Source: Desulfobacterales bacterium (GTDB taxonomy: Bacteria; Desulfobacterota; Desulfobacteria; Desulfobacterales; JAIPEE01). From it: 64,000 nucleotides of DNA. Positions 18,940-49,711 of this stretch are shown one piece after another. Position numbers and translations under genes: made by a program. The stretch covers positions 1-64,000 of the forward strand of contig JAIPEE010000005.1 of NCBI GenBank assembly GCA_021737275.1, written 5' to 3'. Numbering within the stretch: position 1 is the stretch's first letter; each line of letters begins with the position of its first letter. The notes under the pieces were generated by a model, which was not told the DNA's origin, did no database searches, and worked only from the letters and a program-made list of their open reading frames with translations.

Positions 18940-19938
18940 ATGCCAAAAATATTAGTTACAGGTGCTGATGGTTTTATTGGCAGTCATCTAACTGAAATGT
19001 TGATAGAAAATGGTTTTGACGTAAAAGCATTCGTTTATTACAATTCTTTTAATTCATTCGGATGGTTGGATACACTTCCTATACATTCCATTAAAAACCT
19101 TGAAGTTTTTGCTGGTGATATCAGAGACCCCCATGGCGTATCTAAAGCCCTTAAGGATTGTAATATTGTATTACATTTAGCTGCTCTTATTGGAATTCCA
19201 TATTCATACCATTCACCAAGCACATATATCGACACAAACGTTAAAGGCACACTAAATGTTTTGCAGGCTGCCAGAGATCATAACATAGATAAGGTTGTTG
19301 TAACTTCGACCAGTGAAGTATATGGAACGGCTCAATATGTTCCAATTAATGAAAATCATCCACTTCAAGCTCAATCTCCATATGCAGCCTCAAAAGCTTC
19401 AGCTGATCATTTGGCATTATCCTACTTTAGATCTTTTGATACGCCTGTCACTGTAATAAGACCTTTCAACACTTATGGCCCAAGACAATCTGCCCGTGCT
19501 GTTATTCCAACAATAATAACTCAGCTTTTAAATGGTAAAACTGAAATTGAACTTGGATCGTTGCACCCAACAAGAGATTTTACATTTGTAAAAGATACAG
19601 CTCGGGGATTTATAAGTGCTATAAATTCAAATAATAGCTTTGGTGAAGTTATTAATCTTGGCAGTAATTTCGAAATATCAATAGGTGATTTGGCATATAC
19701 CGTTGCAAATTTATTAAAAATTAATATCAATATTAAATCAGATTCAATTAGAGAAAGACCCGTAAAAAGTGAAGTTGAAAGACTGTTTGCAGATGCATCT
19801 AAAGCAAATAATTTATTAAACTGGGAACCTAAGTTTGGTGGTCTTGCAGGTTTGAAAAAAGGTCTGGAAATAACAATAAAGTGGTTTAGTGATTCTAATA
19901 ACCTCAGTAAATACAAACATGAACAATACAATATCTGA
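18940..19938 (+). CDS. legB: LegB-type sugar-nucleotide 4,6-dehydratase
   Basis: First committed enzyme of legionaminic acid synthesis, dehydrating (GDP- or UDP-)GlcNAc to the 4-keto-6-deoxy sugar. It is an extended SDR: LVTGADGFIGSHLTEML at residues 5-21, TSTSEVYGTA, and YAASKASAD with catalytic Tyr-Lys. The AFVYYNSFNSFGWLD signature near residue 30 is typical of LegB proteins. Length 332. The next gene, legC, overlaps its end by 20 bp. Confidence 0.87.
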   Translation: MPKILVTGADGFIGSHLTEMLIENGFDVKAFVYYNSFNSFGWLDTLPIHSIKNLEVFAGDIRDPHGVSKALKDCNIVLHLAALIGIPYSYHSPSTYIDTNVKGTLNVLQAARDHNIDKVVVTSTSEVYGTAQYVPINENHPLQAQSPYAASKASADHLALSYFRSFDTPVTVIRPFNTYGPRQSARAVIPTIITQLLNGKTEIELGSLHPTRDFTFVKDTARGFISAINSNNSFGEVINLGSNFEISIGDLAYTVANLLKININIKSDSIRERPVKSEVERLFADASKANNLLNWEPKFGGLAGLKKGLEITIKWFSDSNNLSKYKHEQYNI

Positions 19939-21100
19939 TAAAATAACAACTATTCTCAAGGAATTATTTCCTGAGGGTGCTAACTTACATGAACCATCAT
20001 TTGATGGCAATGAGAAAGAATATTTATGTGATTGTATAAACTCTACTTTTGTTTCTTCGGTCGGCAAATATGTTGATAAATTTGAAGATTTGCTTATTCA
20101 GTATACTGGCTCTAAATACGCTATAGCGGTTACAAACGGCACTGCAGCAGTTCATCTTTGCCTTATTGTATGTGGCGTCAAAAGAAACGATGAAGTTCTT
20201 ATCCCTGCTTTAAATTTTATTGCTGCTGCTAATGCTATTTCATATTGTGGTGCTGTTCCACATTTTATTGACAGCTCTTTTGAAACACTTGGTGTTTGCC
20301 CAAACAAGTTATCCGATTATTTGAAATTGATATCAGAGAAAAAAGAAGACGGTTTTACCTACAATAAAAATACAGGAAGAAGAATCAAAGCCTGCGTTCC
20401 AATGCATACTTTTGGACATGCTGTAGATGTTGAAAATCTGATGGATTTATGTAGTCGATATAATATTACAATGATAGAAGACGCGGCGGAGTCTATTGGC
20501 TCATTTTATAAAGGTCAGCATTTGGGAAATTTTGGCCTTGTTTCTGCTTTAAGTTTTAACGGAAACAAAACGATTACATGCGGTGGAGGTGGTGCAGTTT
20601 TAACAAATAATAAAAGTATAGCAGCACTTGCAAAACATATTTCTAGCACCGCAAAAATAACCCACTCATGGAAGTGTTATCACGATATGACCGGATACAA
20701 TTATAGAATGCCTAACTTAAATGCCGCATTAGGATGTGCTCAAATTGAACAAATTGATATACTAATAAAACAAAAACGGGAACTTGCTAATTTCTATTCT
20801 AATTTATTTAAAAATAATGATGATGTTATTTTTTTTACAGAACCTGAAAATTCTAAAAGCAACTATTGGCTAAATGCTATTATTTTAAATATTGAAGATA
20901 TTAACCTCAGAAATTTAGTTTTAGATAAATCCAAAAATACAAACATTATGATCCGCCCGGTTTGGGATCTTTTAAACAGTTTACCAATGTATAAACACTC
21001 TCCATCAATGGATCTTTCAGTAGCTGAAAGCTTAGAGAAAAGATTAATTTGCTTACCCAGTTCTTCTTTTTTGATAAACAAGATAAATGCATCCTATTAA
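19919..21100 (+). CDS. legC: LegC-type PLP-dependent sugar aminotransferase
   Basis: Aminates the 4-keto sugar from LegB (DegT/DnrJ/EryC1 family). TNGTAAVHLCL binds PLP phosphate, EDAAESIGS is the usual Asp region, and SFNGNKTITCGGGG carries the Schiff-base Lys (about residue 218). The N-terminal LHEPSFDGNEKEYL is typical of LegC. ATG 19919 is preferred over an upstream TTG at 19889. It overlaps legB by 20 bp and legG by 14 bp, so the three are translated as a tight unit. Confidence 0.87.
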   Translation: MNNTISDKITTILKELFPEGANLHEPSFDGNEKEYLCDCINSTFVSSVGKYVDKFEDLLIQYTGSKYAIAVTNGTAAVHLCLIVCGVKRNDEVLIPALNFIAAANAISYCGAVPHFIDSSFETLGVCPNKLSDYLKLISEKKEDGFTYNKNTGRRIKACVPMHTFGHAVDVENLMDLCSRYNITMIEDAAESIGSFYKGQHLGNFGLVSALSFNGNKTITCGGGGAVLTNNKSIAALAKHISSTAKITHSWKCYHDMTGYNYRMPNLNAALGCAQIEQIDILIKQKRELANFYSNLFKNNDDVIFFTEPENSKSNYWLNAIILNIEDINLRNLVLDKSKNTNIMIRPVWDLLNSLPMYKHSPSMDLSVAESLEKRLICLPSSSFLINKINASY

Positions 21101-22259
21101 ACGAATTTGTATTGTAACAGGTACTCGAGCTGAATATGGCCTTTTATACTGGTTAATAAAGTATATCGAGGAAGATTCTTTTCTGGACCTGCAGTTAATT
21201 GTTACCGGTACTCATTTATCTGAACAATATGGCCATACTGTAGACAAGATTATTGAGGATGGTTTTGGTATAAGTGATAAAATAGAGATACCGCTAAGGA
21301 ATAATTGCGGTACAGATATTTCCAAAGCCGTTTCAAATGTCATTGATCGTATCTCAAATAGTTATAATCAATTAAATCCGGATATAGTTATCTTATTGGG
21401 TGATCGGTATGAAATTTTTGGAGCAGCTGTTTCTGCCTTTATAAATAAAATACCGATAGCGCACATTCATGGCGGTGAGGTTACTGAAGGTTCTCTTGAT
21501 GACGGTTTCCGCCACTCAATATCCAAAATGGCATCTATTCACTTTACTTCTACTGAGACCTATAGACACAGGTTAATTAACATGGGTGAAAATCCAGATA
21601 GAGTTTTCAATTTTGGTGCCATAGGGTTGGATAATATCCGTAAATTAAATTTAAAATCCTGCGCTGAATTAGAATCTGATCTTGGGTTTAGTTTTTCAGA
21701 AAAAACGGCACTAATAACCTATCATCCGGTTACATTAATTAAGTTGTCTTTTGAAAAGCAAATTGACAATTTATTGACTGCAATTTCCCAATTTAATTTT
21801 AACTCAATTTTTACGATGCCAAATGCTGACGAGGGAAGTGATTTAATTCAAAATAAAATTTCCCAATTCACGTCGGTTAATAAAGATACCAGCTTGTTAA
21901 TAAAATCTATGGGACAATTAAATTATCTTTCAGCCCTAAAGTATATTAATATTATGATCGGAAATTCATCCAGTGGAATCATTGAGTCACCTTTTTTCAA
22001 TCTGCCTGTTGTTAATATTGGAAATCGACAAAAGGGTCGTATTTGCTGTGAAAATATTTTTAATTGTAATCAAGATGTTAATAGTATCATCTCAGCTATT
22101 AGATCTGCTTTAAGTTATAAAAATTCCAATATGAAGAATCCTTATGGTGATGAAGAGGTGAGCAGCAAAATATTCAACCTTCTAAAAACATTAAATATTA
22201 ATAACTCTTTTCTAAAAAAAGGTTTTTATGACGTCTCAACTTTTCACTCTTTAAGTTAA
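21087..22259 (+). CDS. legG: Hydrolysing UDP-sugar 2-epimerase (LegG/NeuC family)
   Basis: Hydrolyses and inverts the NDP-diacetamido sugar to free 2,4-diacetamido-2,4,6-trideoxymannose. The family signatures are IVTGTRAEYGLLYW (residues 8-21), LGDRYEIFGAAVSA, HIHGGEVTEGSLDD and GNSSSGIIESPFF. At 390 residues it is full length. It lies between legC and legI, the expected partners, which argues for LegG rather than sialic-acid NeuC. Confidence 0.88.
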   Translation: MHPIKRICIVTGTRAEYGLLYWLIKYIEEDSFLDLQLIVTGTHLSEQYGHTVDKIIEDGFGISDKIEIPLRNNCGTDISKAVSNVIDRISNSYNQLNPDIVILLGDRYEIFGAAVSAFINKIPIAHIHGGEVTEGSLDDGFRHSISKMASIHFTSTETYRHRLINMGENPDRVFNFGAIGLDNIRKLNLKSCAELESDLGFSFSEKTALITYHPVTLIKLSFEKQIDNLLTAISQFNFNSIFTMPNADEGSDLIQNKISQFTSVNKDTSLLIKSMGQLNYLSALKYINIMIGNSSSGIIESPFFNLPVVNIGNRQKGRICCENIFNCNQDVNSIISAIRSALSYKNSNMKNPYGDEEVSSKIFNLLKTLNINNSFLKKGFYDVSTFHSLS

Positions 22260-22270
22260 TTATATAAGTT

Positions 22271-23371
22271 ATGAAAAAGCATAGTATTTCAACCTCACCA
22301 AATCACGTTTTTATAATTGCCGAAGCCGGTGTAAACCACAATGGTTCAGTCGCATTAGCCAAAAAACTGATTGATATCGCCGCAGAAGCAGGTGCAGATG
22401 CCATAAAATTTCAAACTTATAAAACAGAAGAATTATTATCTAAAAATGCACCCAAAGCGGCTTATCAGAATAAAAATACGCCCTTAAATGAATCTCAGTT
22501 TGAAATGCTTAAGAATTATGAATTAGATTCAAAAGCACATTATGAATTATTCAAATATTCCCAGAGAAAAAAAATATCGTTTATTTCATCTCCTTTTGAT
22601 AATGAAAGTATTGATCTACTATCCCAAATTGGTGTTGATTTTATCAAGATTGCTTCTGGAGAAATTATAAATGCGCCTCTTTTATTAAAAGCTTCAAGAA
22701 CCCATATTCCAATTATATTATCAACCGGAATGGCAACTTTAGGAGAAATAGAATCCGCGTTGTCAATTATAGCATTTGGAAGAATTCATGAATCATCTTA
22801 CCCAACAGGAACTTCACTTGTAAACACTTACCACTCTTCTGATGCACAAAATATTTTAAAAGAAAACGTCAGTATTCTTCATTGTACAACAGACTATCCG
22901 GCATCATTTGAACATACAAACCTACATACCATTCGATCATTATCAGACACTTTTGGATTAAAAACCGGATTTTCTGATCATACAAAAGGTATAGCTATTT
23001 CAATAGCGGCAGTAGCATGCGGCGCAAGAATTATAGAAAAACACATAACTACAGATAAAACCTTACCAGGCCCGGACCACTCTGCTTCCATTGAGCCAAA
23101 TGATCTTAAAAATATGGTTTTAAGCATAAGACAGGTTGAAAAATCATTGGGTTCTATCCAAAAACAAATTTCAACCCCAGAATTAACAAACCGTTTAATT
23201 GTCCGTAAAAGTATTATGGCTTCACGTAAAATTAAAAAAGGTGACATTTTCACAGACAAAAATCTATTAATAAAGCGGCCTGGAAACGGAATTTCACCTC
23301 TCAAATATTGGGATTTGATTGGGAAAACATCATCTAAAAGCTATAATGTTGATGATTTAATAATTGATTAA
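22271..23371 (+). CDS. legI: Legionaminic acid synthase (NeuB/LegI family)
   Basis: Condenses the free diacetamido sugar with phosphoenolpyruvate to give N,N'-diacetyllegionaminic acid. AEAGVNHNGSVALAKKLID opens the NeuB TIM barrel, with DAIKFQTYKTEELL, ASGEI and FSDHTKGIAISIAA following. The last 65 residues form the antifreeze-like SAF domain (RKSIMASRKIKKGDIF). Length 366. The neighbours legB, legC and legG suggest legionaminic rather than neuraminic acid, though the family alone does not decide. Confidence 0.88.
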   Translation: MKKHSISTSPNHVFIIAEAGVNHNGSVALAKKLIDIAAEAGADAIKFQTYKTEELLSKNAPKAAYQNKNTPLNESQFEMLKNYELDSKAHYELFKYSQRKKISFISSPFDNESIDLLSQIGVDFIKIASGEIINAPLLLKASRTHIPIILSTGMATLGEIESALSIIAFGRIHESSYPTGTSLVNTYHSSDAQNILKENVSILHCTTDYPASFEHTNLHTIRSLSDTFGLKTGFSDHTKGIAISIAAVACGARIIEKHITTDKTLPGPDHSASIEPNDLKNMVLSIRQVEKSLGSIQKQISTPELTNRLIVRKSIMASRKIKKGDIFTDKNLLIKRPGNGISPLKYWDLIGKTSSKSYNVDDLIID

Positions 23372-23422
23372 ACCTTTTCAAGTTCCATATCAATAAAACA
23401 AATAAATAATTTAGGTGATGAA

Positions 23423-24511
23423 ATGGTAGAACTTCAATATTTAATTTCAGAAAGCAATATTACAATTAAAGCAGCATGGCGCTTAATCAACAATAATAAA
23501 AAAAAAGTATTATTTATTGTTGATAAAGAAAGCAGAATAATTGGTGCAATTTCTGATGGAGATGTAAGAAGATGGATTCTTTCAGGTAAAAGTATTTGTG
23601 AGCCGGTAACTGAAATCATGAATGCCAATCCAGTTATTGCTAAATTTTCTGATTCAAAAGAATCGATCAAATTCCTTATGATAAGATGTAACATTGATAG
23701 CGTTCCAATAGTAGATGAAAATAATGTTATTCTTGATGTTGTTTCTCTGCATGACCTAATGAAGAATGAGCGTTCAAATGAATTAAAAAAAGAAAATATA
23801 GATGTTCCTGTTGTAATTATGGCAGGTGGAATGGGGACAAGATTATCACCCTTTACTAAAGTTTTACCGAAACCTTTGATACCGATACATGACAAACCTA
23901 TCATTGATATTATTATAGATCGTTTTCTGGCTTACTCTGTTAATACTTTTCATATATCTGTACATTATAAAGCAAATATGATTAAGGCCTATTTTCAGGA
24001 TAACAACAGGCCTTATAATATTAGCTTTATTGAAGAGGCCACGCCATTAGGCACGGGTGGTGCACTTTATTTATTAAAAGAACAAATTGATTCAACTTTT
24101 TTTGTAACAAACTGTGATATTTTGGTTGATTCTAATTATGCCGATATTCTGAATTTTCACAGACAGAATAATAATAAAATTACTTTGGTTTGTTCAATGA
24201 AACATATCAAAATTCCTTATGGCGTAGTAAAAACAGAAAATAGTGGTGAACTTAAAAATATTGATGAAAAACCCGAATCTGACTTCTTGATAAATACAGG
24301 CATGTATGTTTTGGAACCTGATATTATTGACATGCTCTCTGCTAATCAATTCATTCATATAACTGATATTATTGAAAATGCAAAACAGTCCGGTATGAAA
24401 ATTGGTGTTTTTCCAATCCCTGATGAAGCGTGGATGGATATTGGACAAATGGAAGAATACCAGACTGTTTTAAGAAAATTTGAAACAAATATCACACAAA
24501 AATCGGCTTAA
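23423..24511 (+). CDS. ptmE: CBS-domain sugar-1-phosphate nucleotidyltransferase (PtmE-like)
   Basis: Residues 1-120 are a pair of CBS domains (LFIVDKESRIIGAISDGDVRRWI, then VPIVDENNVILDVVSLHDL). Residues 128-362 are a nucleotidyltransferase, with MAGGMGTRLSPFTKVLPKP as the NTP loop and TNCDILVD as the metal-binding strand. This architecture matches Campylobacter PtmE, which makes GDP-glucosamine for the GDP-linked legionaminic route. That implies LegB here uses a GDP-sugar (inference). AGGTGATGAA precedes the ATG. Confidence 0.8.
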   Translation: MVELQYLISESNITIKAAWRLINNNKKKVLFIVDKESRIIGAISDGDVRRWILSGKSICEPVTEIMNANPVIAKFSDSKESIKFLMIRCNIDSVPIVDENNVILDVVSLHDLMKNERSNELKKENIDVPVVIMAGGMGTRLSPFTKVLPKPLIPIHDKPIIDIIIDRFLAYSVNTFHISVHYKANMIKAYFQDNNRPYNISFIEEATPLGTGGALYLLKEQIDSTFFVTNCDILVDSNYADILNFHRQNNNKITLVCSMKHIKIPYGVVKTENSGELKNIDEKPESDFLINTGMYVLEPDIIDMLSANQFIHITDIIENAKQSGMKIGVFPIPDEAWMDIGQMEEYQTVLRKFETNITQKSA

Positions 24512-24527
24512 TATATTTTTATTATTT

Positions 24528-25166
24528 ATGGACTCAATTGTATTAATAGGCGCTGGCGGGCATTGCAAAGTAGTAGCAGAAGCCCTTCATACAAATAATG
24601 CATATAAAATTGCAGGCATCTTCGATAATGAGAATAAAACACATGGACCTTGTAATATTTTAATTATAGGGAAAGATGATGATGCAAAATCATTTTATTC
24701 TAATAATATACAAAGAGCTTTCCTGACAATAGTCGGTTTAGGCATTAATGATATAAGAAAACAACTTTTTAAGTATTATTCAGATATTGGTTACTCTTTC
24801 CCTATTATTCAGCATTCAAAAGCAATAGTATCCAAAACAACCAAAATTGGTGAAGGTACTTTTATTGCTGCAGGGTCTATTATCGGTCCGGATGTAATAA
24901 TAGGTAAAAATGCAATTATTAATTCAGGTGCGATTATCGACCATGACTGCAATGTTGGTGATTATTCACATATAGCACCAGGGTCGATATTATGTGGTGA
25001 TGTATTAATTGGAAACAGCACTCATATCGGATCCGGATCAAATATTATACAGGGTATATCAATAGGTAGTAACACAATTATAGGAGCAGGAAGCGTTGTA
25101 GTTAAAAATATACCTGAAAATGTTTTAGCATATGGCAACCCATGTAGAATAATTAAATACCTTTAG
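24528..25166 (+). CDS. NeuD/PglD-like sugar acetyltransferase (probable LegH role)
   Basis: A 212-residue protein with an N-terminal Rossmann-like segment (IVLIGAGGHCKVVAEAL) and a C-terminal left-handed beta-helix of hexapeptide repeats (IGEGTFIAAGSIIGPDVIIG onward), ending NIPENVLAYGNPCRII. The NeuD family N- or O-acetylates nonulosonic acid intermediates. In this cluster it is the only candidate for the 4-N-acetylation step between LegC and LegG. ATG 24528 is used; an upstream TTG would extend into the preceding gene. Confidence 0.8.
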   Translation: MDSIVLIGAGGHCKVVAEALHTNNAYKIAGIFDNENKTHGPCNILIIGKDDDAKSFYSNNIQRAFLTIVGLGINDIRKQLFKYYSDIGYSFPIIQHSKAIVSKTTKIGEGTFIAAGSIIGPDVIIGKNAIINSGAIIDHDCNVGDYSHIAPGSILCGDVLIGNSTHIGSGSNIIQGISIGSNTIIGAGSVVVKNIPENVLAYGNPCRIIKYL

Positions 25167-25204
25167 CTTTCAAATAATTATTATTGTATCTAACGAATTA
25201 TCCT

Positions 25205-26332
25205 ATGGAAAAAACTGACTCATATTTGAATAAAATTAAGTGCCCGGAATGTAATGTTTATTCGAATAACAACATTTTTTGCCATAATTGCAGATACCCG
25301 CTTAAAGTTCTAAAATTATCTGATTATAAGAATCAAGACTTTGTTAATTTTCTTAACCATCTTCATTGTGTTTTAAAAGTTTTTAATCAAATCGATTTCA
25401 AAGATACTTTTTTAGATCAAATATTTCATGAATTGTTTGTAATGGATTGGCTGCGCCCTGAATCTGCAATATTTAATTTTATGCAACTAAAGTCGCTTCA
25501 TAAATACAGATCATATTTCCATTATCCCACCCTTGACATGGGATGTGGGAATGGTCTTATTTCATCAATTTTCTTTGGTGGAAAGTTAAATTTTGATTTT
25601 GACAATTACGGCTCAATAGATCTTTCGAATACAGATGTTTATAATTCTCATACTGGATCGAATATAAATATTTTATCTAAAAAACCATCGCCAATTGGAT
25701 ATGGTATTGACATTAAAGTTAATTCTATAAACAATGCTAAAGATTTAAATGTTTTTGATGACCTTAATGTTGGAGATATACGAAACCTGCCGTTTGAAAA
25801 CAATTCGGTCAGTACAGTTTTTTCAAATATGATCGATGATATAAAAGATGATGATTTATCTCAAACCTTTAAAGAAATATATCGCGTATTAAGACCAGAT
25901 CAATATGTAATATTCACCTCTCCTTCTGAAGATTATCGAAATAGTCTATTTTACTATCCGGAAATTATCCGCTTAATCAAAGCCGATAAAGCCGATAAAG
26001 CTCAGCAATATAAACAATATGATAGAGGCAGATCTCATTGGTTGCCACGAACAACAACTTTTTGGAAGGATTTTCTTGAAGTGCACTCATTTAAACTTGA
26101 AGTTTGCGAATCTTTTTTAGATGACCGACTATTAAAAATATGGGACGTTGGTTTAAGGCCTTTTTTCCCAAAGCTTCTTGAAATAAGAAATGAATTTAAC
26201 AACAATAATATGTTAAGAGAACTTAAATCTGTAATTGTTGAAATATTTGAAAATTATTTTTTTAATATAGTAAATAAGCCACTTAACAATAAATCCTCAT
26301 TTTTAATTATAATTGCTAAAAAGATCGGGTAA
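25205..26332 (+). CDS. Zinc-ribbon class I SAM-dependent methyltransferase
   Basis: A 375-residue protein. It opens with a four-cysteine zinc ribbon (CPECNVYSNNNIFCHNC, residues 12-28). A Rossmann methyltransferase domain follows (LDMGCGNGLISSIFF near 114, then LPFENNSVSTVFSNMIDD). The KADKADKAQ stretch near residue 260 is a 9-bp tandem duplication. ATG 25205 is chosen over a TTG at 25184. Its position inside the legionaminic cassette suggests sugar O- or N-methylation; the substrate is unknown. Confidence 0.68.
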   Translation: MEKTDSYLNKIKCPECNVYSNNNIFCHNCRYPLKVLKLSDYKNQDFVNFLNHLHCVLKVFNQIDFKDTFLDQIFHELFVMDWLRPESAIFNFMQLKSLHKYRSYFHYPTLDMGCGNGLISSIFFGGKLNFDFDNYGSIDLSNTDVYNSHTGSNINILSKKPSPIGYGIDIKVNSINNAKDLNVFDDLNVGDIRNLPFENNSVSTVFSNMIDDIKDDDLSQTFKEIYRVLRPDQYVIFTSPSEDYRNSLFYYPEIIRLIKADKADKAQQYKQYDRGRSHWLPRTTTFWKDFLEVHSFKLEVCESFLDDRLLKIWDVGLRPFFPKLLEIRNEFNNNNMLRELKSVIVEIFENYFFNIVNKPLNNKSSFLIIIAKKIG

Positions 26333-26339
26333 TAAAACT

Positions 26340-27260
26340 ATGTTGGATCACGAAAAAAAAGAATCAATTAAATTTTGGGATAATGCTGCAACTAAATGGC
26401 GTAAATTTGCACATGATGAAGATAATAATCGGATGGTATTTCCGACTTCACAAGTCCGCCAGGATATTGTTCTTACAGAAATATCTAAATCATCTGATTT
26501 GAATTTGCATATTTTAGATATTGGTTGCGCTGATGGCGGCCTCACTATTGAATTAGTGAGACGTGGTTTTACCAATTCAATTGGTATTGATAATTCTCAG
26601 AGAATGATTAATGAAGCAAAGCGGCGTTTCAGTGAAGAGTTCCCATCTTTGGATCCAGACAAACATTTTATTGTAAGTGATGCCGACACACTAAATATGG
26701 ATCACAGTTTTGATTATATTTCCGCTTTAGGCTTAATTGAATATGTCCAAAATACAGATAATTTCCTTTCAATTATACATAGTTTACTTAGTAACAATGG
26801 GATCGCATTTATTGAATCCAGAAATAAACTTTTTAATGTTTTTTCTGCAAACAAGTATACCTTCGAATCAGACATCGAAAAATTAGTTTCCGAATTAGAT
26901 AAAACTTCAAAGCTAAGCCCATTAAAAGATAATTACGAATCTATAGTGAGGGAAACATTTATTAATATCGGTAACTTTTTACAGCAAAATAAAACACAAA
27001 GTGATATCAACAGGCCTGAGTTCGAATCTTATCCTTTCAGCTTGCCTCAATACTCTCCATTAGAATTTGTTGAGTTCTGCAAAAACAATAATCTTATTGT
27101 TGAGAATATAATTTTTTATCATTGCCATCCCTTTACACCTGCATTTGAAAAACTTATGCCTCAAACTTATAATACAATCGGACTACTCATGCAGCCTCTT
27201 GGCTATACACCCATTGGCAGTACGATTAGCTCCTCATTTATTGGAAAACTATCAAAATAA
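26340..27260 (+). CDS. Class I SAM-dependent methyltransferase
   Basis: A 306-residue methyltransferase. Motif I is ILDIGCADGGLTIELV near residue 55, motif II is SIGIDNSQRMINEAKRRF, and the post-motif stretch is DYISALGLIEYVQN. ATG 26340 follows the preceding stop by only a few bases. It lies next to another methyltransferase and before Gfo/Idh and legF. Probable sugar methylation in the same glycan; acceptor unknown. Confidence 0.7.
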   Translation: MLDHEKKESIKFWDNAATKWRKFAHDEDNNRMVFPTSQVRQDIVLTEISKSSDLNLHILDIGCADGGLTIELVRRGFTNSIGIDNSQRMINEAKRRFSEEFPSLDPDKHFIVSDADTLNMDHSFDYISALGLIEYVQNTDNFLSIIHSLLSNNGIAFIESRNKLFNVFSANKYTFESDIEKLVSELDKTSKLSPLKDNYESIVRETFINIGNFLQQNKTQSDINRPEFESYPFSLPQYSPLEFVEFCKNNNLIVENIIFYHCHPFTPAFEKLMPQTYNTIGLLMQPLGYTPIGSTISSSFIGKLSK

Positions 27261-27279
27261 ATCTTAATAATTTTAATTA

Positions 27280-28212
27280 ATGAAAATAATATTCTTCGGA
27301 CTTGGTTCTATTGGGCAACGGCATGCTCAAATAATTCAGGAAATATTCCCACAATATGAGCTTTTTGCTTTCCGTTCGTTTAATGGCCAATTACATAACA
27401 ATCTTAAAATCCATGAGATTTCCAGAGAAATTGACATAAAAGCCATTAATCCAAACGTTGCATTTATTACTAATCCCACATACATGCATATACAAACAGC
27501 AATAAAATGTGCAAAAAACAACCTAAATTTGTTTATTGAAAAACCGCTGGATTGTTCAAATATCAAACTTGATTTATTATTAGATGAAGTAACCCAAAGA
27601 AACCTAACCTCTTATGTTGCATATGTACTTCGATTTCATCCCGTAATCGGTTTTCTTAAAAACAAGTGCGAGATTGAAACAATCACAAATGTTAAAGTGA
27701 TTTGTAAAACAAATTATTCTTCGTGGCGACCAAATCAAAATCAATTTAAAAACTACTCCGCATTTCAGGCTAAAAGTGGCGGCATTTTATTCGATCTATC
27801 TCATGAAATTGATTATATAGATTATGTTTTTGGAAAAATTATAGATATTACGGGATATTCTGAAAAAAAATATGATGTAACAATTGATGCTCATGATCAT
27901 GCTGTTTTGAAAATTAAAACTGAAAAAATTAATTCGATTAGTCTGCTTTTAGATTACTGTTGTTTGGAACCTGAAAGAACTATAACAGTCGAATATCTAA
28001 ACAATAATTATTTAGTTGCAGATTTGATAAATAATACGATTAAATATTCAGATAATGTTAAATCAATAACTTTTTCAAATGAAGTCGATTTTATCTTCAA
28101 ACAACAACTTCAATATTTTTTCCAAAATATTGATAATAATCAAATGATGAACAACATCGTAGAAGCTAGTCACTTATTCAACAAAATTATCCCATTAACT
28201 CAATTAATTTAA
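27280..28212 (+). CDS. Gfo/Idh/MocA-family oxidoreductase (PtmF position)
   Basis: A 310-residue NAD(P)-dependent sugar oxidoreductase. The N-terminal Rossmann motif is IIFFGLGSIGQRHAQII. The catalytic EKPL segment is FIEKPLDCSN near residue 90, and GGILFDLSHEIDYIDYVFG gives the second-domain His. It overlaps legF by one base (TAATG). It occupies the place of ptmF, before ptmB/legF, in the Campylobacter flagellar glycan cluster as I recall it, where it is linked to glucosamine supply. Confidence 0.75.
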   Translation: MKIIFFGLGSIGQRHAQIIQEIFPQYELFAFRSFNGQLHNNLKIHEISREIDIKAINPNVAFITNPTYMHIQTAIKCAKNNLNLFIEKPLDCSNIKLDLLLDEVTQRNLTSYVAYVLRFHPVIGFLKNKCEIETITNVKVICKTNYSSWRPNQNQFKNYSAFQAKSGGILFDLSHEIDYIDYVFGKIIDITGYSEKKYDVTIDAHDHAVLKIKTEKINSISLLLDYCCLEPERTITVEYLNNNYLVADLINNTIKYSDNVKSITFSNEVDFIFKQQLQYFFQNIDNNQMMNNIVEASHLFNKIIPLTQLI

Positions 28213-28916
28213 TGACAATTCTAACTACTATCTTAGCACGAGGCGGATCAAAGGGTATCCCCAATAAAAATATTAGGATGATTGCCGGTAAACCTTTAAT
28301 ATGTCATACAATTGACCAAGTAAAAACATGGAATAAGTTTGATTCTTTTATTGTTTCCACTGATTCTATTCAGATCGCTGACGTTGCAAAAGAGCACGGT
28401 GCACCAGTACCATTTATAAGACCGCCGCACCTTGCAACAGATACTTCTGGAAAGTTAGATTCCCTGCGCCATGCTTTAATTGAAAGCGAAAAGTACTTTA
28501 ACAATCGGTTTGATATAATTTTTGATTTAGATGCCACTTCACCGATAAGAAGTATCGATGATATGGATAATATTGTAGCCTTATTTACCGATAAAAATCC
28601 AGACTGTGTATTTTCTGTCGTAAAATCAAACAAAAACCCATATTTTAATATGGTTGAAAAAAGGATAGATGGGACTGTTGATATTTGCAAAAAGTTAGAG
28701 CATGACATCCTACGTCGTCAGGATACACCTGTAGTTTTTGATATGAATGCTTCAATGTATGTTTACAGCAGGGATTTTTTAGTAAATCCCAAAAACACCC
28801 TACCCTATTCTGGTGTTGCATATGCATATGAGATGGATGCGCTTTGTGCCTATGATATTGACAATGAAATAGATTTAGAAATCGTAGAACTGATTATGAA
28901 AAAGCTTCAATATTAA
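28212..28916 (+). CDS. legF: CMP-legionaminic acid synthetase (LegF/NeuA family)
   Basis: Activates the nonulosonic acid with CTP to the CMP-sugar used by glycosyltransferases. The signature LARGGSKGIPNKNIR is at residues 7-21, with LICHTIDQ following and FDLDATSPIRSIDDMD as the conserved central motif. Its 234 residues are standard for NeuA/LegF/PseF. The choice of legF follows from the legB-C-G-I neighbours. Confidence 0.88.
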   Translation: MTILTTILARGGSKGIPNKNIRMIAGKPLICHTIDQVKTWNKFDSFIVSTDSIQIADVAKEHGAPVPFIRPPHLATDTSGKLDSLRHALIESEKYFNNRFDIIFDLDATSPIRSIDDMDNIVALFTDKNPDCVFSVVKSNKNPYFNMVEKRIDGTVDICKKLEHDILRRQDTPVVFDMNASMYVYSRDFLVNPKNTLPYSGVAYAYEMDALCAYDIDNEIDLEIVELIMKKLQY

Positions 28917-35389: not shown

Positions 35390-35417
35390 TAATAAAAATG
35401 AAATCAAGGGAGCTATT

Positions 35418-37981: not shown

Positions 37982-38518
37982 ATGGATATTGATAAGCTTT
38001 TTCAGGATTCATTTGAGTACCATCAAAAAGGTGATCTTGAAGGTGCAATGGAGGGTTATAAAACAGTTTTAAACAATAATCCTGATCATCCAAGTGCCCT
38101 TCATTTATCAGGCTTAATTGAATTTGATAAAAACAAAAATTATGATGAGGCAATAACATTAATTGAAAAATCACTCACTCTGGCACCCAATGAACTGCAG
38201 TGGACATTCAATCTGGGAAAAGTTTTTTCAACAGCGGGTAAAATTGATCAGGCGATTTCTACATATAAAAAAGCATTAAGTATGGACCCGGGATCAAGTA
38301 TTGCAAAAGTCGAATTAGGTGATTTGTATTTTAAACAGAACAGGCTCTCCGATGCACTTTTAGTATATTACAGACTCCTGACTGAAGATATTATGAACGG
38401 TGAGCTTGCACAAAAGTACATTAAAACTCTAGTTGCAATGAGCAAATCAAAAGAAGCGGAATACTTTGCGTATCGGTTTAAAAAATCAAATCCGCAGACA
38501 ACCATTGAGGTTAAATAA
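37982..38518 (+). CDS. TPR-repeat protein
   Basis: A 178-residue protein made of about four TPR units (FEYHQKGDLEGAMEGYKTVL, LGKVFSTAGKIDQAISTYKKAL, LGDLYFKQNRLSDALLVYY). It has no signal peptide and no catalytic motif. It starts 2 bp after the methyltransferase gene and 4 bp before the GT41 gene, so it is cotranscribed. It may be an adaptor that presents substrate to the GT41 enzyme (inference). Confidence 0.75.
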   Translation: MDIDKLFQDSFEYHQKGDLEGAMEGYKTVLNNNPDHPSALHLSGLIEFDKNKNYDEAITLIEKSLTLAPNELQWTFNLGKVFSTAGKIDQAISTYKKALSMDPGSSIAKVELGDLYFKQNRLSDALLVYYRLLTEDIMNGELAQKYIKTLVAMSKSKEAEYFAYRFKKSNPQTTIEVK

Positions 38519-38522
38519 CAAT

Positions 38523-41267
38523 ATGTCGAAAAAAAGGAATAAAAACAAATCTAAAAACAGCGACAATACCTCAAAAGCTAAAAGCAGCAGCCAGACAATT
38601 CTTTTTTCAACTGCTGTATCTTTGTTTGAGAAGGGTGATTTAACTGATGCAAAGAAAATTTTTCGTAAAATTTTAAAAAAGCAACCCTCCCATATTGAAT
38701 CATTAAATTATATGGGATTGATTTATAAAACTGAAAGCAATTTAGATGAATCAATAAACTGTTTTAATCAAATTATTACTTTAGATCCGAAATATGCAAA
38801 TGCCTATTTCAACATTGGCGGCATATATATTGATCAGGCACAGTACAATGAAGCGCTGGATATGTTTAAAAAAGTTACTGCTCTAGTCCCTGATTATACA
38901 AATGCCTGGTTTAATCTTGGTTTAATTTCCACTGCTTTGAATAAAAATGAAGACGCGCTGTCTTATTACAAAAAAACAATTGAACTTGATCCATCCTATT
39001 CTCATGCCTATCAGAATATTGCCAGCATATATCAAAACGATAAAAACGTTGATAAAGCAATTGAATATTTTGAAAAGACAATACAAGCTGACCCTAACTA
39101 TTCTAACGCCTGGTTTAATCTTGGTTTCATTGAAATGAATCGAAATAATAACGAGAAAGCAATTAAATATTTTGAAAAATCATATGAAATCCAACCTGAT
39201 TCTGTTGAAACAATTGTAAATATTGGCTTTATCAAACAGAAACAGGAGCTTTATGATGAAGCTCAACAATATTATGAAAAAGCAATTTCAATCAACCCGG
39301 ATTTCAGCGGTGCACATATTAATCTCGGTAATATTTACCAGCATAATGGAGATAATTTAAAAGCATTAGAATGCTACAATAAAGCAGCATCAATTAATCC
39401 AAGTATTCTTGTATTTAACAATATTTGCGGTATTCAAAAAGATTTAATGAATTATGATCAAGCAAATGAAGTCTTACTCAAAATGTTAGAATTCCCTGAT
39501 CTTGATAAATCCGATTTGGCCAGTATCCATGATACATTGATTCAAATATGTGAATGGGACAAGGCGTCTGAAATCATAGATAAACTCAGAGTAGCTGAAT
39601 TCAATTCTGAAACAAAGGACGTATTCGCAGGGAGCTTGATGGAGTTTTGCGGTAATACGGACCTGACGCTTGATGAAATTTCAGAATTCCATAAACTCTG
39701 GAGTAATTTTACAGAAAAACTGGTTGTACCATATAAGCACAACCGAGACTCGAAGCGATTCAAAGACCGGAAAAAGCCCCGGATAGCATATATTTCTCCT
39801 GATTTAAGAGAACACTCTGTAGGATATCTGATTAAGGATATTATCACATCTCATAATCATGAAGAGTTAGAAATATATTGTTATGCTAACCATGATCCTA
39901 AGAGTAGTGATGCCTTTACACAGGAAATGATAAATAGCTGTAAGTGTTTTAAGTATATAAAGCATATGACAGACAAAGCAGTTGCTGATGAAATATATAA
40001 TGATGAAATTGATATCCTCATTGATCTTGCCGGGCATACGGCCGGACATCGTCTTCGCTCAATGGCATATAAGCCTGCGCCAATTCAAATGACATATCTC
40101 GGTTACCCGAATACAACAGGTATGAGCCGAGTTGATTACAGGATCTCTGATCAATACGCTGAAACAACACATGACAAAGACTACAGATATTCTGAGAATC
40201 TTATCAGACTGACAAATTGTTTTCTTACTTTTAAAGGATTTTTGGAAACAACACCGGAGCCTGCAAAAAGCAAAAGTGGTAAGTCTATCATTTTCGGCTG
40301 TTTTAATAATATCCAAAAGCTGTCGCCAACAGCTATAAAATTATGGGCAGCTATTTTAAATGACGTAGAAAATAGTGTTCTCCATCTTAAGGCCAAGCAA
40401 CTTAATACAACGTTTGTATGGAATAATATCGAAGAAGAATTTAAAAAATATGATATTTCATCAGAAAGATTGAAGTGCTTAGGTTATGCGCCCACAAGGC
40501 AAGATCATCTTAAATGCTATAATGATATTGATATCGCACTGGATACATTTCCTTATAACGGAACAGTTACTACACTTGAATCTTTGTGGATGAACATACC
40601 GGTTGTTACACTTGTGGGTGAAAGCCATGCCCAGCGGGTTGGGTACTCAATTTTGAAAAACCTTGCTCTGGATAAACTTATAACTTTTACAGAAGAGGAA
40701 TATGTTTCACGAATTGTCGAACTTGCAAAACATCCCGAAATAATTGTTGATTTGAAGACAAAGATGAGAAAACGACTTATTGCCTCATCAATATGCAACC
40801 CTGAAGTGTTTACACGCGAACTTGAACTAAAGCTTAAAAAAATATGGCTGGACTATCTGAGGAAAGGAAGTACAGGCCTAAACATGAAAGAAAACATTAT
40901 TGAACCCACAGATGAGCAGCTTGATGGAGAAATATCGAATGCAAGCCGTTTGAGAATGGCAATGGTAAAACTCAAAGCATGTGACTACGAAAGTGCTATA
41001 GAAATATCAAACAGCTTACTGAATTCAAATGGAATTTCTTACTTAGCATGGTATGTTCTTGGCGCATCACACCTTGGTCTTGGTGATAATGAAAAAGCCT
41101 TCGATGCAATCAGCAAATCTCTTTCACTTAATGATAATAATGCGGGTGCCTGGAAAATGTTGGGAGAATTAAATATTCTCAATGACGATATAGAAAATGC
41201 AAACTTATGCCTTGCAAAGATCTTGGAAATCACCCAGTCTGAACTAAATAAAATGGTTCAAAAGTAG
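38523..41267 (+). CDS. GT41 O-GlcNAc-transferase-like protein (TPR-SPINDLY type)
   Basis: A 914-residue enzyme. After a Lys-rich start, at least eight TPRs fill residues 30-400 (DPKYANAYFNIGGIYIDQAQYNEAL and similar). The catalytic region from about 415 shows IAYISPDLREHSVGYL with the conserved His, then DLAGHTAGHRLRSMAYKPAP and QMTYLGYPNTTGM, the classic OGT/SPINDLY segments. A UDP-binding part follows (FNNIQKLSP, LDTFPYNGTVTTLESLWM). The last 100 residues are again TPR-like. Such enzymes glycosylate Ser/Thr of proteins; flagellin is the obvious local candidate. ATG 38523 is preferred over the TTG at 38466. Confidence 0.88.
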   Translation: MSKKRNKNKSKNSDNTSKAKSSSQTILFSTAVSLFEKGDLTDAKKIFRKILKKQPSHIESLNYMGLIYKTESNLDESINCFNQIITLDPKYANAYFNIGGIYIDQAQYNEALDMFKKVTALVPDYTNAWFNLGLISTALNKNEDALSYYKKTIELDPSYSHAYQNIASIYQNDKNVDKAIEYFEKTIQADPNYSNAWFNLGFIEMNRNNNEKAIKYFEKSYEIQPDSVETIVNIGFIKQKQELYDEAQQYYEKAISINPDFSGAHINLGNIYQHNGDNLKALECYNKAASINPSILVFNNICGIQKDLMNYDQANEVLLKMLEFPDLDKSDLASIHDTLIQICEWDKASEIIDKLRVAEFNSETKDVFAGSLMEFCGNTDLTLDEISEFHKLWSNFTEKLVVPYKHNRDSKRFKDRKKPRIAYISPDLREHSVGYLIKDIITSHNHEELEIYCYANHDPKSSDAFTQEMINSCKCFKYIKHMTDKAVADEIYNDEIDILIDLAGHTAGHRLRSMAYKPAPIQMTYLGYPNTTGMSRVDYRISDQYAETTHDKDYRYSENLIRLTNCFLTFKGFLETTPEPAKSKSGKSIIFGCFNNIQKLSPTAIKLWAAILNDVENSVLHLKAKQLNTTFVWNNIEEEFKKYDISSERLKCLGYAPTRQDHLKCYNDIDIALDTFPYNGTVTTLESLWMNIPVVTLVGESHAQRVGYSILKNLALDKLITFTEEEYVSRIVELAKHPEIIVDLKTKMRKRLIASSICNPEVFTRELELKLKKIWLDYLRKGSTGLNMKENIIEPTDEQLDGEISNASRLRMAMVKLKACDYESAIEISNSLLNSNGISYLAWYVLGASHLGLGDNEKAFDAISKSLSLNDNNAGAWKMLGELNILNDDIENANLCLAKILEITQSELNKMVQK

Positions 41268-42995
41268 ATGCAGACACTTGAAACATATTTTTTAAGCAAC
41301 AATGCTGCTTTATGCGATAAACGCTTCTCGCATATTGACATTTTGTTTCAGGAGAACAATTCAAAATCTTCCAAGAATAGCCTGAAAAACCAAAAGTATA
41401 TCACAGTTACAAATAAGCGGAGAGAAAATAATTACATTGAAATAAATTCAATTATCGTTCTTTTGGGTATTGATTCTTTTTATCGCATTTTGAGAAATAT
41501 CAGATCTGTTTTAATTGAACATGCTATCATTCTTATTGCCGATGATAGTGAATCTTTTAAAAGTATGCTCAATAAATTCGATTTGAGCGATATTTTCAAT
41601 CGAAAGAATTTTTATATAACAACAGATAATGACATTTCGAATACTGTAAAATATATCTCTCAGATCCAGTTAAAATATTCCGGTAAACCGTTATACTTTT
41701 ATGAAAACCATGAAACAGCAGATCTTAACATAAAATTTTATAGTGGTGTTATAAACGCTTTTAAAAGAGATACTAAGCAAAACATCTATGACCAATTAAA
41801 ATATAAAAAATTTGCAGAGGACAAAACAAAAGTATTGTTGCTGTCCGGCCACTATTTTATTACAAAAGAAATAGTAAACACCTTTAATCGGATGGGTATC
41901 GACTATAAACCTGTTGATATAAAGCCAGGAAACCGGGCTTCACAAATATTTATTGAAGATATCATTAAGCATATTATTGAATTTAAGCCGGATTTTCTAT
42001 TGACCATAAACCATCTGGGTCTTGATTGTGAAGGAAAATTAGCACAGTTTCTCGAAAAAATTGAAATGCCACTTGCCTCCTGGTATGTTGATGACCCTAA
42101 TCTTATCATCCGGTTTCATCATAATAATATTACATCATACAGCACTTTGTTCCTCTGTGATAAAGATCGTGTCCAAAACACGAAAGATATGGGATTTGAA
42201 CATTCGTATTATCTTCCTCTGGGAGTAGATGAAACTGTTTTTCGCCCTATAAAAACAGATTCGAATCCATTTTCACAATATTCGCCCCAAGTTGGTTTTG
42301 TTGGAAACTCAATGGTCAGCAAGGTTAAAGAAAGTTTAAACAGAGCAGATGTCAATGGATCGCTGAAGCCCGCTTTCGAAGAAATTGCCGGTATGTTTAT
42401 GATAAATAACCATCGCAGCATAGAAGAAACCGTGCTATCTGTTTTTCCTCATATCTCAGCCGAATTCATTTCACTATCCAAAGAAAAGCGAAATAATTTT
42501 GAAGCGGCTCTCTACTGGGAAGCTACCCGTCGTTACAGGTTAAAAAGAATCAGCAGGTTACTGCCATCAAATCCCATAATAGCAGGTGATGCCGGTTGGA
42601 AAGAGTTAATCGAAGAAAATCAGTTTACACATCTCCCGGAACTTTCATATCATGATCAACTGCCGCTGTTTTACAATGCAATAAAAATAAACTTCAATGC
42701 AACCAGTCGCCAGATGAAAGGTGCCGTTAACCAAAGGGCATTTGATGTTCCGGCATGCAACCGTTTTCTATTAACGGATTTTCAGGAACAGATTGCTGAA
42801 TTGTTTGATATTGGAAATGATATGATATGCTACAACTCACCAGATGAAATTGAGGATCTTGTTCGTTTTTATTTGAACCATGGTACGGAAAGAGACAGAA
42901 TATCTAAAAACGGATACCAGCGGGTAATTAAGGATCACACATACACAATACGTATTAAAAATATGATAGATATAATGAAAAAACTATACCATTAA
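41268..42995 (+). CDS. CgeB-like glycosyltransferase
   Basis: A 575-residue DUF3880/CgeB-type glycosyltransferase. FKPDFLLTINHLGLD, SWYVDDPNLIIRF, YLPLGVDETVFRPI and KINFNATSRQMKGAVNQR are the same blocks as in the C-terminal part of the protein at 12758, so the two are paralogues at opposite ends of the glycan block. The first 185 residues are poorly conserved and I do not recognise them. Its ATG follows the GT41 stop directly (TAG-ATG). It is probably cytosolic and acts on flagellin glycan. Confidence 0.75.
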   Translation: MQTLETYFLSNNAALCDKRFSHIDILFQENNSKSSKNSLKNQKYITVTNKRRENNYIEINSIIVLLGIDSFYRILRNIRSVLIEHAIILIADDSESFKSMLNKFDLSDIFNRKNFYITTDNDISNTVKYISQIQLKYSGKPLYFYENHETADLNIKFYSGVINAFKRDTKQNIYDQLKYKKFAEDKTKVLLLSGHYFITKEIVNTFNRMGIDYKPVDIKPGNRASQIFIEDIIKHIIEFKPDFLLTINHLGLDCEGKLAQFLEKIEMPLASWYVDDPNLIIRFHHNNITSYSTLFLCDKDRVQNTKDMGFEHSYYLPLGVDETVFRPIKTDSNPFSQYSPQVGFVGNSMVSKVKESLNRADVNGSLKPAFEEIAGMFMINNHRSIEETVLSVFPHISAEFISLSKEKRNNFEAALYWEATRRYRLKRISRLLPSNPIIAGDAGWKELIEENQFTHLPELSYHDQLPLFYNAIKINFNATSRQMKGAVNQRAFDVPACNRFLLTDFQEQIAELFDIGNDMICYNSPDEIEDLVRFYLNHGTERDRISKNGYQRVIKDHTYTIRIKNMIDIMKKLYH

Positions 42996-43004
42996 GGGGG
43001 AATC

Positions 43005-43655
43005 ATGCAAACCTTACCAATATCCAATATCGATAAAAATTCTTTTAGATGCTTTATTGATGGTTCTGAACAAATATTAACCGGGAGTTTTACTAATCTT
43101 GAAGATGTTCTGCTTGACATCATGGCCCACCAGATACCTGATACCCATAATATATGGTCAGTTTCTCTAAATGGTGAACACTTCAGTGAAACTGAAACGG
43201 TAAAAGCAAAATTGGTTACACTGGATACCATACGGTCACTTGAAATTTCTACAAAAGGTGAAAAAGATATCCTCATGCAGTTTCTGGATAGCAGTAGTGA
43301 AACCTGTGATATTTTAATTCAGAGTGCATTTAAAATTGCAGAACTCTTCAAAACAGGGGATGATAAAATAGCCAATGCATATTATCTGGAATTTTTAAAT
43401 GCATTTCAAAACTTTTGCTCCATGGTACAACATAATCTGACGAATATGGATTCTGATTTGCATAACATTTCATTTAAATACATTTCAATAAAGATAGATG
43501 CTGAAGAGCTTGAAAATATTTTTACTGATATGATTGCGGCTCAGGAAAAAATGGATTGGATACTTTTGTCAGATAAACTTGAAAATGATATTGCTCCTTT
43601 TTTGAAGGCATATTCTTATATTTTACCTATCATTAAAATGCAGGTAAAAGAATAA
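43005..43655 (+). CDS. Uncharacterised protein at the end of the glycan operon
   Basis: A 216-residue protein that I do not recognise. Residues 1-90 look like a small alpha/beta domain (FRCFIDGSEQILTGSFTNLEDVLLDIM), and residues 90-216 are helical (TCDILIQSAFKIAELFKTGDD, QKMDWILLSDKLENDIAPFL). There are no cysteines beyond four scattered ones, no membrane segment and no catalytic motif. It has a strong ribosome site (GGGGG) 4 bp before the ATG and is followed by terminators. Its position between the glycosyltransferase and flagellin suggests a flagellin- or modification-related role. Confidence 0.65.
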   Translation: MQTLPISNIDKNSFRCFIDGSEQILTGSFTNLEDVLLDIMAHQIPDTHNIWSVSLNGEHFSETETVKAKLVTLDTIRSLEISTKGEKDILMQFLDSSSETCDILIQSAFKIAELFKTGDDKIANAYYLEFLNAFQNFCSMVQHNLTNMDSDLHNISFKYISIKIDAEELENIFTDMIAAQEKMDWILLSDKLENDIAPFLKAYSYILPIIKMQVKE

Positions 43656-43741: not shown

Positions 43742-43790
43742 ACTGCATTTTTTGCAGTCAAGATTTCCTGTGAAAGCGGGAATTTTTTTT
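43742..43790 (+). terminator. Terminator of the glycan operon
   Basis: ACTGCA-TTTTT-TGCAGT (43742-43758) is followed by TTCCTG-TGAAAG-CGGGAA and eight T (43765-43790). The second is a typical short stem with a U-tract on the plus strand. Confidence 0.6.
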
Positions 43791-43800
43791 GACCTAAAGT

Positions 43801-43835
43801 AAAAAGGGGAAGCAAAATGCTTCCCCTTTTTTTAT
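43801..43835. terminator. Bidirectional terminator between the glycan operon and flagellin
   Basis: A perfect 14-bp stem, AAAAAGGGGAAGCA with its complement around AAA, has A- and T-runs on both sides. It can stop transcription of fliC (minus) and the operon (plus). Confidence 0.88.
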
Positions 43836-43868: not shown

Positions 43869-45293
43869 TTAGCCACCGATTAACTGGAGCGCCAATCTGT
43901 TGATTGAGTTTGCCTGTGCGAGCATTGCTGTTGCAGCCTGTGTCAGAATTGAGTTTCTTGTAAACTCAACCATTTCCATTGCAATATCAGCATCGGAAAT
44001 ACGGGACTCTGCAGCCTGCGTATTTTCAGCCTGGATGGTAAGGTTGGTAATCGTATTTTCCAGACGGTTTGCAATAGCACCAAGGCCGGCACGTTCAGTA
44101 TCTTTAGTGACAATAGCGGTATCAACCTGAGCAAGTGTTTCCTGTGCATCATGCTGAGTAGCAAAAGATATACCATATCCAGTTACTGCTGCCTGGCTGC
44201 TTACTGCTGCCTGAGAGGCTACGGCTGTCTGAGAAGCTACTGATGCCTGAGCTGTTATTGCTGCCGCTGAGAGTACTGCTGCCTGAGAGGCTACTGCTGT
44301 ACCTGCATTAGCAGAAGCACGAGCTGAGAAAGCTGCTATTGCTGCCTGAGAACCCTGAGAGGCTCTTGAGGCAACTGATGTCTGAGCAGTTACTGCTGCC
44401 TGTGAGGCTACTGCTGCCTGTGAGGCTACTGATGCCTGTGAAGCCTGAGAAGCTAAGGAAGCTACAGTACCTACCGCAGCCTGGGAAGATTGAGATGCAA
44501 ATGATGCCTGAGAGGCGACTGCTGCCTGTGAGGCTACTGCTGCTGCTGAGGCGACTGCTGCCTGAGAGGCGACTGCTGCCTGAGAGGCGACTGATGCCGC
44601 TGAGGCTATTGCACCATATGCTACACCGGAGGCAGCTGCTCGTGAGGCTACTGATACCTGAGCAGTTATTGCTGCCGCTGAGGCTACTGCAGCCTGAGAT
44701 GCTTGTGCTGCCTGTGCGGCTACTGATGTCTGGGAAGCGACTGCTGTCTGATCAGCCCATCCAAGATTAACACCCAGCGCTTCAGCTGTCATATTGCCAA
44801 TACTGAGATAGTAGTAATCTTCAGCAGAATCATTTCCTGTACCAAAGTGAATCTTCAAACCGTCGGATTGTGATCCATCCAGAAGTTTCTGGCCGTTAAA
44901 ATCCGTTGCATTGGCAATTCTTGTGATTTCCTTGGCCATTTCATCATACTCAGCGGCCATAATTTCTCGTTGTTCCTGAGTATAAGTACCGGTTGAGGCC
45001 TGTTCTGCCAGTTCCTTCATACGAATGAGTTTCTCATCGATAACCTGAAGGGCACCTTCAGCAGTCTGAATCATGGAAATCGCATCACCGGCGTTTCTGA
45101 TACCCTGGCCGATAACCGCGATATCTGATCTCTGCAGCTCGCGAACCGCGAGACCCGCAGCATCATCTGCCGCTGAGTTAATACGCAGACCGGATGAAAG
45201 TCTCTGAACTGAAGTGGACAGTCTGTCATTAACTGTACCGAGGTTTCTTGCGGCATTGATCGCCATCATGTTGTGATTAATGTAAAGAGCCAT
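43869..45293 (-). CDS. fliC: Flagellin with a hexapeptide-repeat central domain
   Basis: Filament subunit of 474 residues. Residues 1-165 are a standard D0/D1 N-terminus (LSSGLRINSAADDAAGLAV). Residues 372-474 are the D1/D0 C-terminus, ending NRLALQLIGG. Residues 183-371 are almost only Ala, Ser, Gln, Val and Thr in hexads of the type V-A-S-Q-A-A. This replaces the usual D2/D3 domain and is the likely glycosylation target of the neighbouring island. It has a strong ribosome site (AAGGAGGAT), a sigma-28 promoter and a long structured leader. It is single copy in the window. Confidence 0.93.
   Translation of the reverse strand: MALYINHNMMAINAARNLGTVNDRLSTSVQRLSSGLRINSAADDAAGLAVRELQRSDIAVIGQGIRNAGDAISMIQTAEGALQVIDEKLIRMKELAEQASTGTYTQEQREIMAAEYDEMAKEITRIANATDFNGQKLLDGSQSDGLKIHFGTGNDSAEDYYYLSIGNMTAEALGVNLGWADQTAVASQTSVAAQAAQASQAAVASAAAITAQVSVASRAAASGVAYGAIASAASVASQAAVASQAAVASAAAVASQAAVASQASFASQSSQAAVGTVASLASQASQASVASQAAVASQAAVTAQTSVASRASQGSQAAIAAFSARASANAGTAVASQAAVLSAAAITAQASVASQTAVASQAAVSSQAAVTGYGISFATQHDAQETLAQVDTAIVTKDTERAGLGAIANRLENTITNLTIQAENTQAAESRISDADIAMEMVEFTRNSILTQAATAMLAQANSINRLALQLIGG
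44181..44747 (-). repeat. 18-bp coding minisatellite in fliC (V-A-S-Q-A-A hexads)
   Basis: About 28 hexads in near-tandem encode residues 183-371, interrupted by slips of two or three residues (for example around VAYGAIASA and SARASANAG). The DNA unit on the plus strand is close to GAGGCGACTGCTGCCT plus two bases. Codons vary (TCC, TCT, TCA; GCA, GCC), so the repeat is partly selected at protein level. Confidence 0.9.
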
Positions 45294-45457: not shown

Positions 45458-45484
45458 ATATCGGTTATGCCATTAAAAACTTTA
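45458..45484 (-). promoter_or_regulatory. Sigma-28 (FliA) promoter of flagellin
   Basis: On the minus strand TAAAGTTT (45477-45484), exactly 11 bp, then ACCGATAT (45458-45465). This differs from the consensus TAAAGTTT-N11-GCCGATAA at two positions only. Confidence 0.85.
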
Positions 45485-49625: not shown

Positions 49626-49711
49626 TTTAATTTCTCCTCTGTAATACTTTTGCAATATTCTAAACAAAAGTATCGCTCAGTGATTTATGAGCAGATCACC
49701 GACTGCTAAAA

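Follow-up and report, generated by a model that had tools for sequence, protein, structure and literature searches.

The flagellin encoded in the window, the 64,000-nucleotide stretch of a Desulfobacterales genome analyzed here, carries an array of about 30 copies of a Val-Ala-Ser-Gln-Ala-Ala motif in the place of D2/D3. This hexad array represents a genuine and conserved kind of outer domain, present in orthologous flagellins of five genomes (the window genome, G119, G641, G552, and G791), and three conserved breaks partition it into four segments of matched length. The best overall explanation, to which we assign a probability of about 60%, is that D2/D3 was replaced once by a V-A-S-Q-A-[A/S] hexad domain that runs as out-and-back arms and is O-glycosylated. 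Novelty lies in the hexad array and its four-arm length rule; the core is that of an ordinary flagellin. No description of a hexad-array outer domain was found in the literature searched, and the findings point to a modular filament-surface domain, so far undescribed.

The gene at 43869–45293 encodes a flagellin of the sigma-28 type whose D0/D1 is normal (Table 1). Both end domains of FliC are present, with Flagellin_N matching residues 5–142 and Flagellin_C residues 388–471. Sites comparable to the sigma-28-like promoter lie 140–204 nt upstream of the flagellin in the other four array genomes, and an AAGGAGG sequence directly precedes the window's ATG. The flagellar neighbors of the gene are FlaG, FliW, and FlgL, the last of which (48012–49667) is one of three places in the window genome that match PF00669. 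FlgK (49712–54301) is 1529 aa long, as opposed to the usual ~550 aa, with FlgK_D1 at 96–312 and rod-type ends; presumably, it too has a large extra outer domain. A plus-strand open reading frame at 44339–44770 was rejected as an antisense by-product of the array composition.

Table 1. Features of the flagellin locus and of the neighboring glycan genes in the window.
Feature	Coordinates	Strand	Evidence or remark
Flagellin gene, 474 aa	43869..45293	-	Flagellin_N 1.6e-37, Flagellin_C 1.4e-21
Sigma-28-like promoter, TAAA-N15-ACCGATAT	45458..45484	-	164 nt before flagellin ATG
N-terminal D0/D1 part, residues 1-178	44760..45293	-	Pfam; 76-78% identity to array flagellins of other genomes over D0/D1
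Hexapeptide array, residues 179-374, in place of D2/D3	44172..44759	-	Hexad statistics
Segment 1 (proposed arm 1), 45 aa	44625..44759	-	Ends at B1, ASG-xxY
Segment 2 (proposed arm 2), 52 aa	44469..44624	-	Ends at B2, AVG-T
Segment 3 (proposed arm 3), 56 aa	44301..44468	-	Ends at B3, RASANAG
Segment 4 (proposed arm 4), 43 aa	44172..44300	-	Back to D1
C-terminal D1/D0 part, residues 375-474	43872..44171	-	Pfam
Terminator-like hairpins	43765..43831	.	Between convergent genes
216-aa protein, no known family	43005..43655	+	No Pfam or NCBIfam match; homologues beside flagellin in 5/5 array genomes
CgeB-like glycosyltransferase (DUF3880 + Glyco_trans_1_2)	41268..42995	+	Homologues in all 5 cassettes, 37-44% identical to the window's
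TPR + GT41 (OGT/FlmG-like) glycosyltransferase, 933 aa	38466..41267	+	50-63% identical in G119, G641, G552
Nonulosonic-acid (legionaminic-like) pathway	18940..28916	+	Name inferred from gene set; starts: dehydratase 18940, aminotransferase 19889, NeuC-like 21087, NeuB 22271, CBS-NTP transferase 23423, PglD-like 24480, CMP-synthase 28212

The initial annotation had described an otherwise ordinary flagellin with a hexad array at 44181–44747, an interval that corresponds exactly to residues 183–371 of the minus-strand 474-aa reading frame; the description is correct in its coordinates and composition, and residues 179–374 are better limits. A hexad model finds 26–27 full hexads in the window array and scores 137, whereas none of 100 composition-preserving shuffles exceeds 38. 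Self-identity within the array at lag 6 has a z of about 8, with lags 3, 6, 9, 12, and so forth raised and lags 2 and 4 below chance. The six columns are dominated by V20/I4/L1, A22/T5/G3, S25, Q22, A23/T4/V2, and A23/S9, respectively, and residues 179–378 hold 48 Ser/Thr, four charged, and six aromatic (F/W/Y/H) residues. The window array is confirmed to be far beyond chance, and it is no assembly artefact.

Each array is cut into four segments by three conserved breaks, namely B1 (ASGxxY), B2 (A[VI]GT), and B3 (RxSxx[AT]G). In G119, B1 and B3 contain no Gly, and their positions come from alignment and homology; in G641, B2 is degenerate, the sum of segments 2 and 3 being independent of B2. 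The segment lengths, in order from 1 to 4, are 45/52/56/43 in the window, 38/46/48/36 in G119, 39/47/49/37 in G641, 33/37/41/31 in G791, and 21/25/29/19 in G552, so that the halves of the arrays are about equal (97/99, 84/84, 86/86, 70/72, and 46/48). Across the five proteins on which the length rule rests, segment 1 is always two residues longer than segment 4 (5/5), and segments 2 and 3 together equal twice segment 1 plus 12 (two proteins) or plus 18 (three proteins). The rule was written down before the G791 protein was read; G791 fits it, its segments being those of G552 plus exactly (12,12,12,12). If hexads were gained independently, the joint evenness seen in G791, G641, and the window with G552 as reference would have P = 4.5e-5, a figure that ignores shared ancestry and anchor choice and serves as a guide only.

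Since the segments change length together, they are better described as four length-matched antiparallel arms than as the outcome of free 18-bp slippage. We infer antiparallel out-and-back arms as the simplest reading of matched lengths between two fixed D1 anchors: arm 1 would leave the D1 tip, arm 2 would return, arm 3 would go out again, and arm 4 would come back. Hexads would be gained or lost in all four arms together, and their number would set how far the outer domain projects from the filament. At slightly below even odds, we would go further and regard the array as a new domain type, in which four antiparallel arms made of one six-residue unit elongate together by whole hexads, forming a modular spacer that governs how thick the filament is and how glycans are displayed, with a local fold (hexapeptide-beta, PPII, or hexad-helical bundle) that has no described counterpart. 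Candidate local conformations of the arms are hexapeptide beta, alpha, and extended/PPII. A PDB profile search with four arrays gave no match. AF2 predicted long helices for the array alone, with a mean pLDDT of 62 (low confidence), and helices again for the whole flagellin with an eight-sequence alignment, with a pLDDT of about 30 in the array.

These models bring up an Ala-rich antiparallel four-helix bundle, with the arms as Gly-capped alpha-helices, which would refine the out-and-back reading rather than oppose it. Two of the three breaks (B1 and B2) fall between predicted helices in the array-only model, Gly occurs at most arm ends, Pro is absent from every array, and the mean helix propensity is 0.32–0.35 kcal/mol in the array compared to 0.38–0.41 in the D0/D1 helices. 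However, besides the low AF2 confidence, the arrays lack helical amphipathicity (moment at 100 degrees of 0.13–0.14, as opposed to 0.38–0.39 in the ND1a helix). Moreover, an alpha-helix closes hexads only every 18 residues, yet the loop motif stays the same among arm 1 lengths (21, 33, 39, and 45) whose differences are not multiples of 18. We consider the bundle somewhat unlikely.

The initial annotation favored a left-handed beta-helix (LbH). In such a fold, every hexad would supply a side of a triangular coil, and the array would stand on D1 as one or two solenoid columns. The pattern [LIV]-[GAED]-x-x-[STAV]-x is indeed matched in register over many hexads, and each array has halves of matching length, as two antiparallel columns would need. 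Three different arrays have LbH enzymes as their top PDB sequence matches, namely LpxD (E 0.044, 0.19) and gamma-carbonic anhydrases (from 0.056), and a reversed-array control matches merozoite antigens instead. These E-values are not significant, though, and neither the window's own array nor a break-free G641 array has a PDB sequence match; likewise, none of four arrays matches Pfam Hexapep PF00132 at E up to 5. Lag 18 is not above lags 6 and 12, and Gly, Asn, and Asp, usual in LbH turns, are few. A single-pass solenoid would not return the chain to D1, and the equal quarters, beyond equal halves, are left without explanation. AF2 gave helices in spite of its reported tendency to over-predict beta-solenoids for perfect repeats (PMC11795689). 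We regard the beta-helix as rather unlikely.

Regularly spaced Ser/Thr beside a glycosylation island had also been pointed out, and both the array composition and the island next door bear this out. Convergent with the flagellin is a cassette of the 216-aa protein, the CgeB-like glycosyltransferase, and the TPR-GT41 enzyme, an order kept in G119, G641, and G552; the G791 contig holds only the small protein and CgeB of the cassette. The 216-aa protein is a conserved flagellin-cassette protein. A homologue is also found near L034, a relative that lacks the array, so the cassette is not strictly array-specific. G641 has an additional gene between those for the flagellin and the small protein (L062:7387–9171); it encodes a TPR + FkbM methyltransferase, perhaps a glycan methylase. 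The 38466–41267 product combines an N-terminal TPR domain with a C-terminal OGT-like GT domain, as in the FlmG type. In Caulobacter, the TPR domain of FlmG binds flagellin, and its GT domain glycosylates flagellins with pseudaminic acid (PMC7591256).

Farther along the window lies the NeuB-type pathway of Table 1, whose genes are interleaved with, and then followed by, methyltransferase, deacetylase, and sulfotransferase genes. This gene set is presumably the one expected for CMP-legionaminic acid. The conserved cassette beside the flagellin, together with this pathway, makes O-glycosylation of the array likely: the array Ser/Thr would be modified in the cytoplasm before export, FlmG-fashion, by the convergent TPR-GT41 and CgeB-like enzymes, and the sugar in the window organism would probably be a nonulosonic acid. 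NeuB was found in G000 and G119, and the window genome has a second NeuB on contig C99. Among the genomes searched, NeuB was not found in G552 or G641; the array genomes therefore do not all share one sugar. The window also encodes a single protein (12758–15055) that fuses a sulfotransferase domain, TPR, and a CgeB-like (DUF3880 + GT) domain. Inside the glycan island is an 879-aa protein (35340–37979) in which a weak kinase-like stretch is flanked by two methyltransferase domains.

Glycosylation might also do without folded arms, with the array as a disordered, mucin-like brush whose hexads each serve the GT41 enzyme as a sequon. The roughly 50 Ser/Thr, the few charged residues, the retention of the hexad at the protein level, and the GT41-TPR gene adjoining the flagellin are all in keeping with a brush, which nevertheless leaves the conserved breaks and the four matched segment lengths unexplained and seems to us quite improbable.

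In the DNA, the 18-bp unit is repeated imperfectly. Exact repeats reach at most 28 nt in the window array, 34 nt in G119, and 41 nt in G791, and there is no exact repeat of at least 15 nt in the arrays of G641 or G552; because of the latter, the hexad is seen to be kept as protein and not through recent homogenization. When hexads are compared within one protein, pN/pS is 0.67 in the window, 0.55 in G119, 0.48 in G641, and 0.40 in G552, with a pS of 0.49–0.72 in these four. The 41-nt repeat of G791 joins parts 204 nt apart, a hint from which one might speculate that arms were lengthened by copying between them. Slippage of the 18-bp unit had been proposed as a source of copy-number variation; copy number does vary among genomes, but in step over four separate segments, so slippage is not the main story. 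That the array is a functionless product of recent DNA-level slippage or an assembly error, as its 18-bp repeats and exact stretches could suggest, is extremely improbable and was rejected as the main explanation, given five independent genomes, a protein pattern that survives where the DNA repeat has decayed (G641 and G552), and break motifs that are conserved and non-repeat.

Among 390 genomes searched in the same order, G119, of another family than the window's, is the only other one with an array flagellin, and a phylum-wide search outside the order added three more (G641, G552, and G791). Matches in G183, G093, G803, G635, and G658 were set aside as other low-complexity, collagen-like, or composition matches that are not flagellins. 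Transglutaminase-substrate (Cementoin) Pfam matches, up to 2.7e-6 in G119, were likewise rejected as low-complexity matches to a different hexapeptide; their scores are marginal, and G552 has none. A D0/D1-only tree, which took in the four array proteins known at the time and left out G791, found later, recovered them as one clade (100/98), sister to the array-less L034. The latter, from a MAG labelled Proteobacteria, is the nearest array-less relative (76% identity over D0/D1). Given this topology, a single replacement of the conventional, surface-exposed outer domain in the common ancestor of the flagellin clade would be the simplest account. L034 and three L035 flagellins (54–62%) have ordinary variable domains of a few hundred residues, and the L037 flagellin has almost no insert. 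Such ordinary domains in relatives had been named in advance as evidence against the array; they do occur in L034 and L035, but the array itself recurs in four genomes besides the window's.

The D0/D1 identity between array flagellins is 76–79%, within the order and across classes alike, reaching 90% for G641–G552, whereas RpoB identity falls from 73–77% between families of the order to 60% for G119 against G552/G641. Similarly, GT41 and CgeB are 66 and 54% identical between G119 and G552, and 63 and 44% between the window and G119. Identities this flat while RpoB falls suggest, by comparison of identities rather than by full reconciliation, that the flagellin-glycosylation cassette was likely exchanged horizontally. 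Other members of G119's family have a different flagellin.

In comparisons of flagellins, the outer domains are usually treated as globular inserts that bear no relation to each other. In the array flagellins, the entire exposed surface appears to be made from one peptide unit, and the five lengths found in nature, from 94 to 196 residues, obey a simple length rule. This natural series, about three to seven hexads per arm, makes low-complexity hexad folding, filament thickness, and O-glycan spacing directly testable, and the array, with Ser/Thr at regular intervals, would also provide a scaffold for glycosylation.

Like other D2/D3-variable flagellins, such as Salmonella FliC and the giants of Oceanospirillales (PMC6248924), array flagellins have a D0/D1 core whose D1 tip bears an exposed insertion that varies. 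The giants carry large repeated inserts, in which a large DE region occurs twice in tandem (PMC6248924), unlike the about 16–33 short hexads in four matched-length arms described here. The cassette resembles Caulobacter FlmG (PMC7591256) in its cytoplasmic TPR + OGT-like GT-B enzyme, predicted here from genes, FlmG acting on flagellin with a nonulosonic acid. The present case differs from FlmG in that the genes for the GT41-TPR enzyme and the flagellin converge, and in that a CgeB-like GT and a small protein accompany the enzyme; the predicted acceptors are the hexad array, and NeuB was not found in two members. With left-handed beta-helix proteins such as LpxD and gamma-carbonic anhydrase, the array has in common a period of six, an aliphatic residue at i, and a small one at i+4; it differs in its four matched segments, in its scarcity of Gly/Asn/Asp, and in the absence of an 18-residue signal and of significant homology. 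Ala-rich and PPII rod bundles are known from the winter flounder Maxi antifreeze protein, a four-helix bundle built on an 11-mer repeat, and the snow flea antifreeze protein, a PPII bundle built on Gly-x-x. Along the same lines, side-by-side packing of low-complexity, little-charged rods is proposed for the array, which is set apart from these antifreeze bundles by its repeat.
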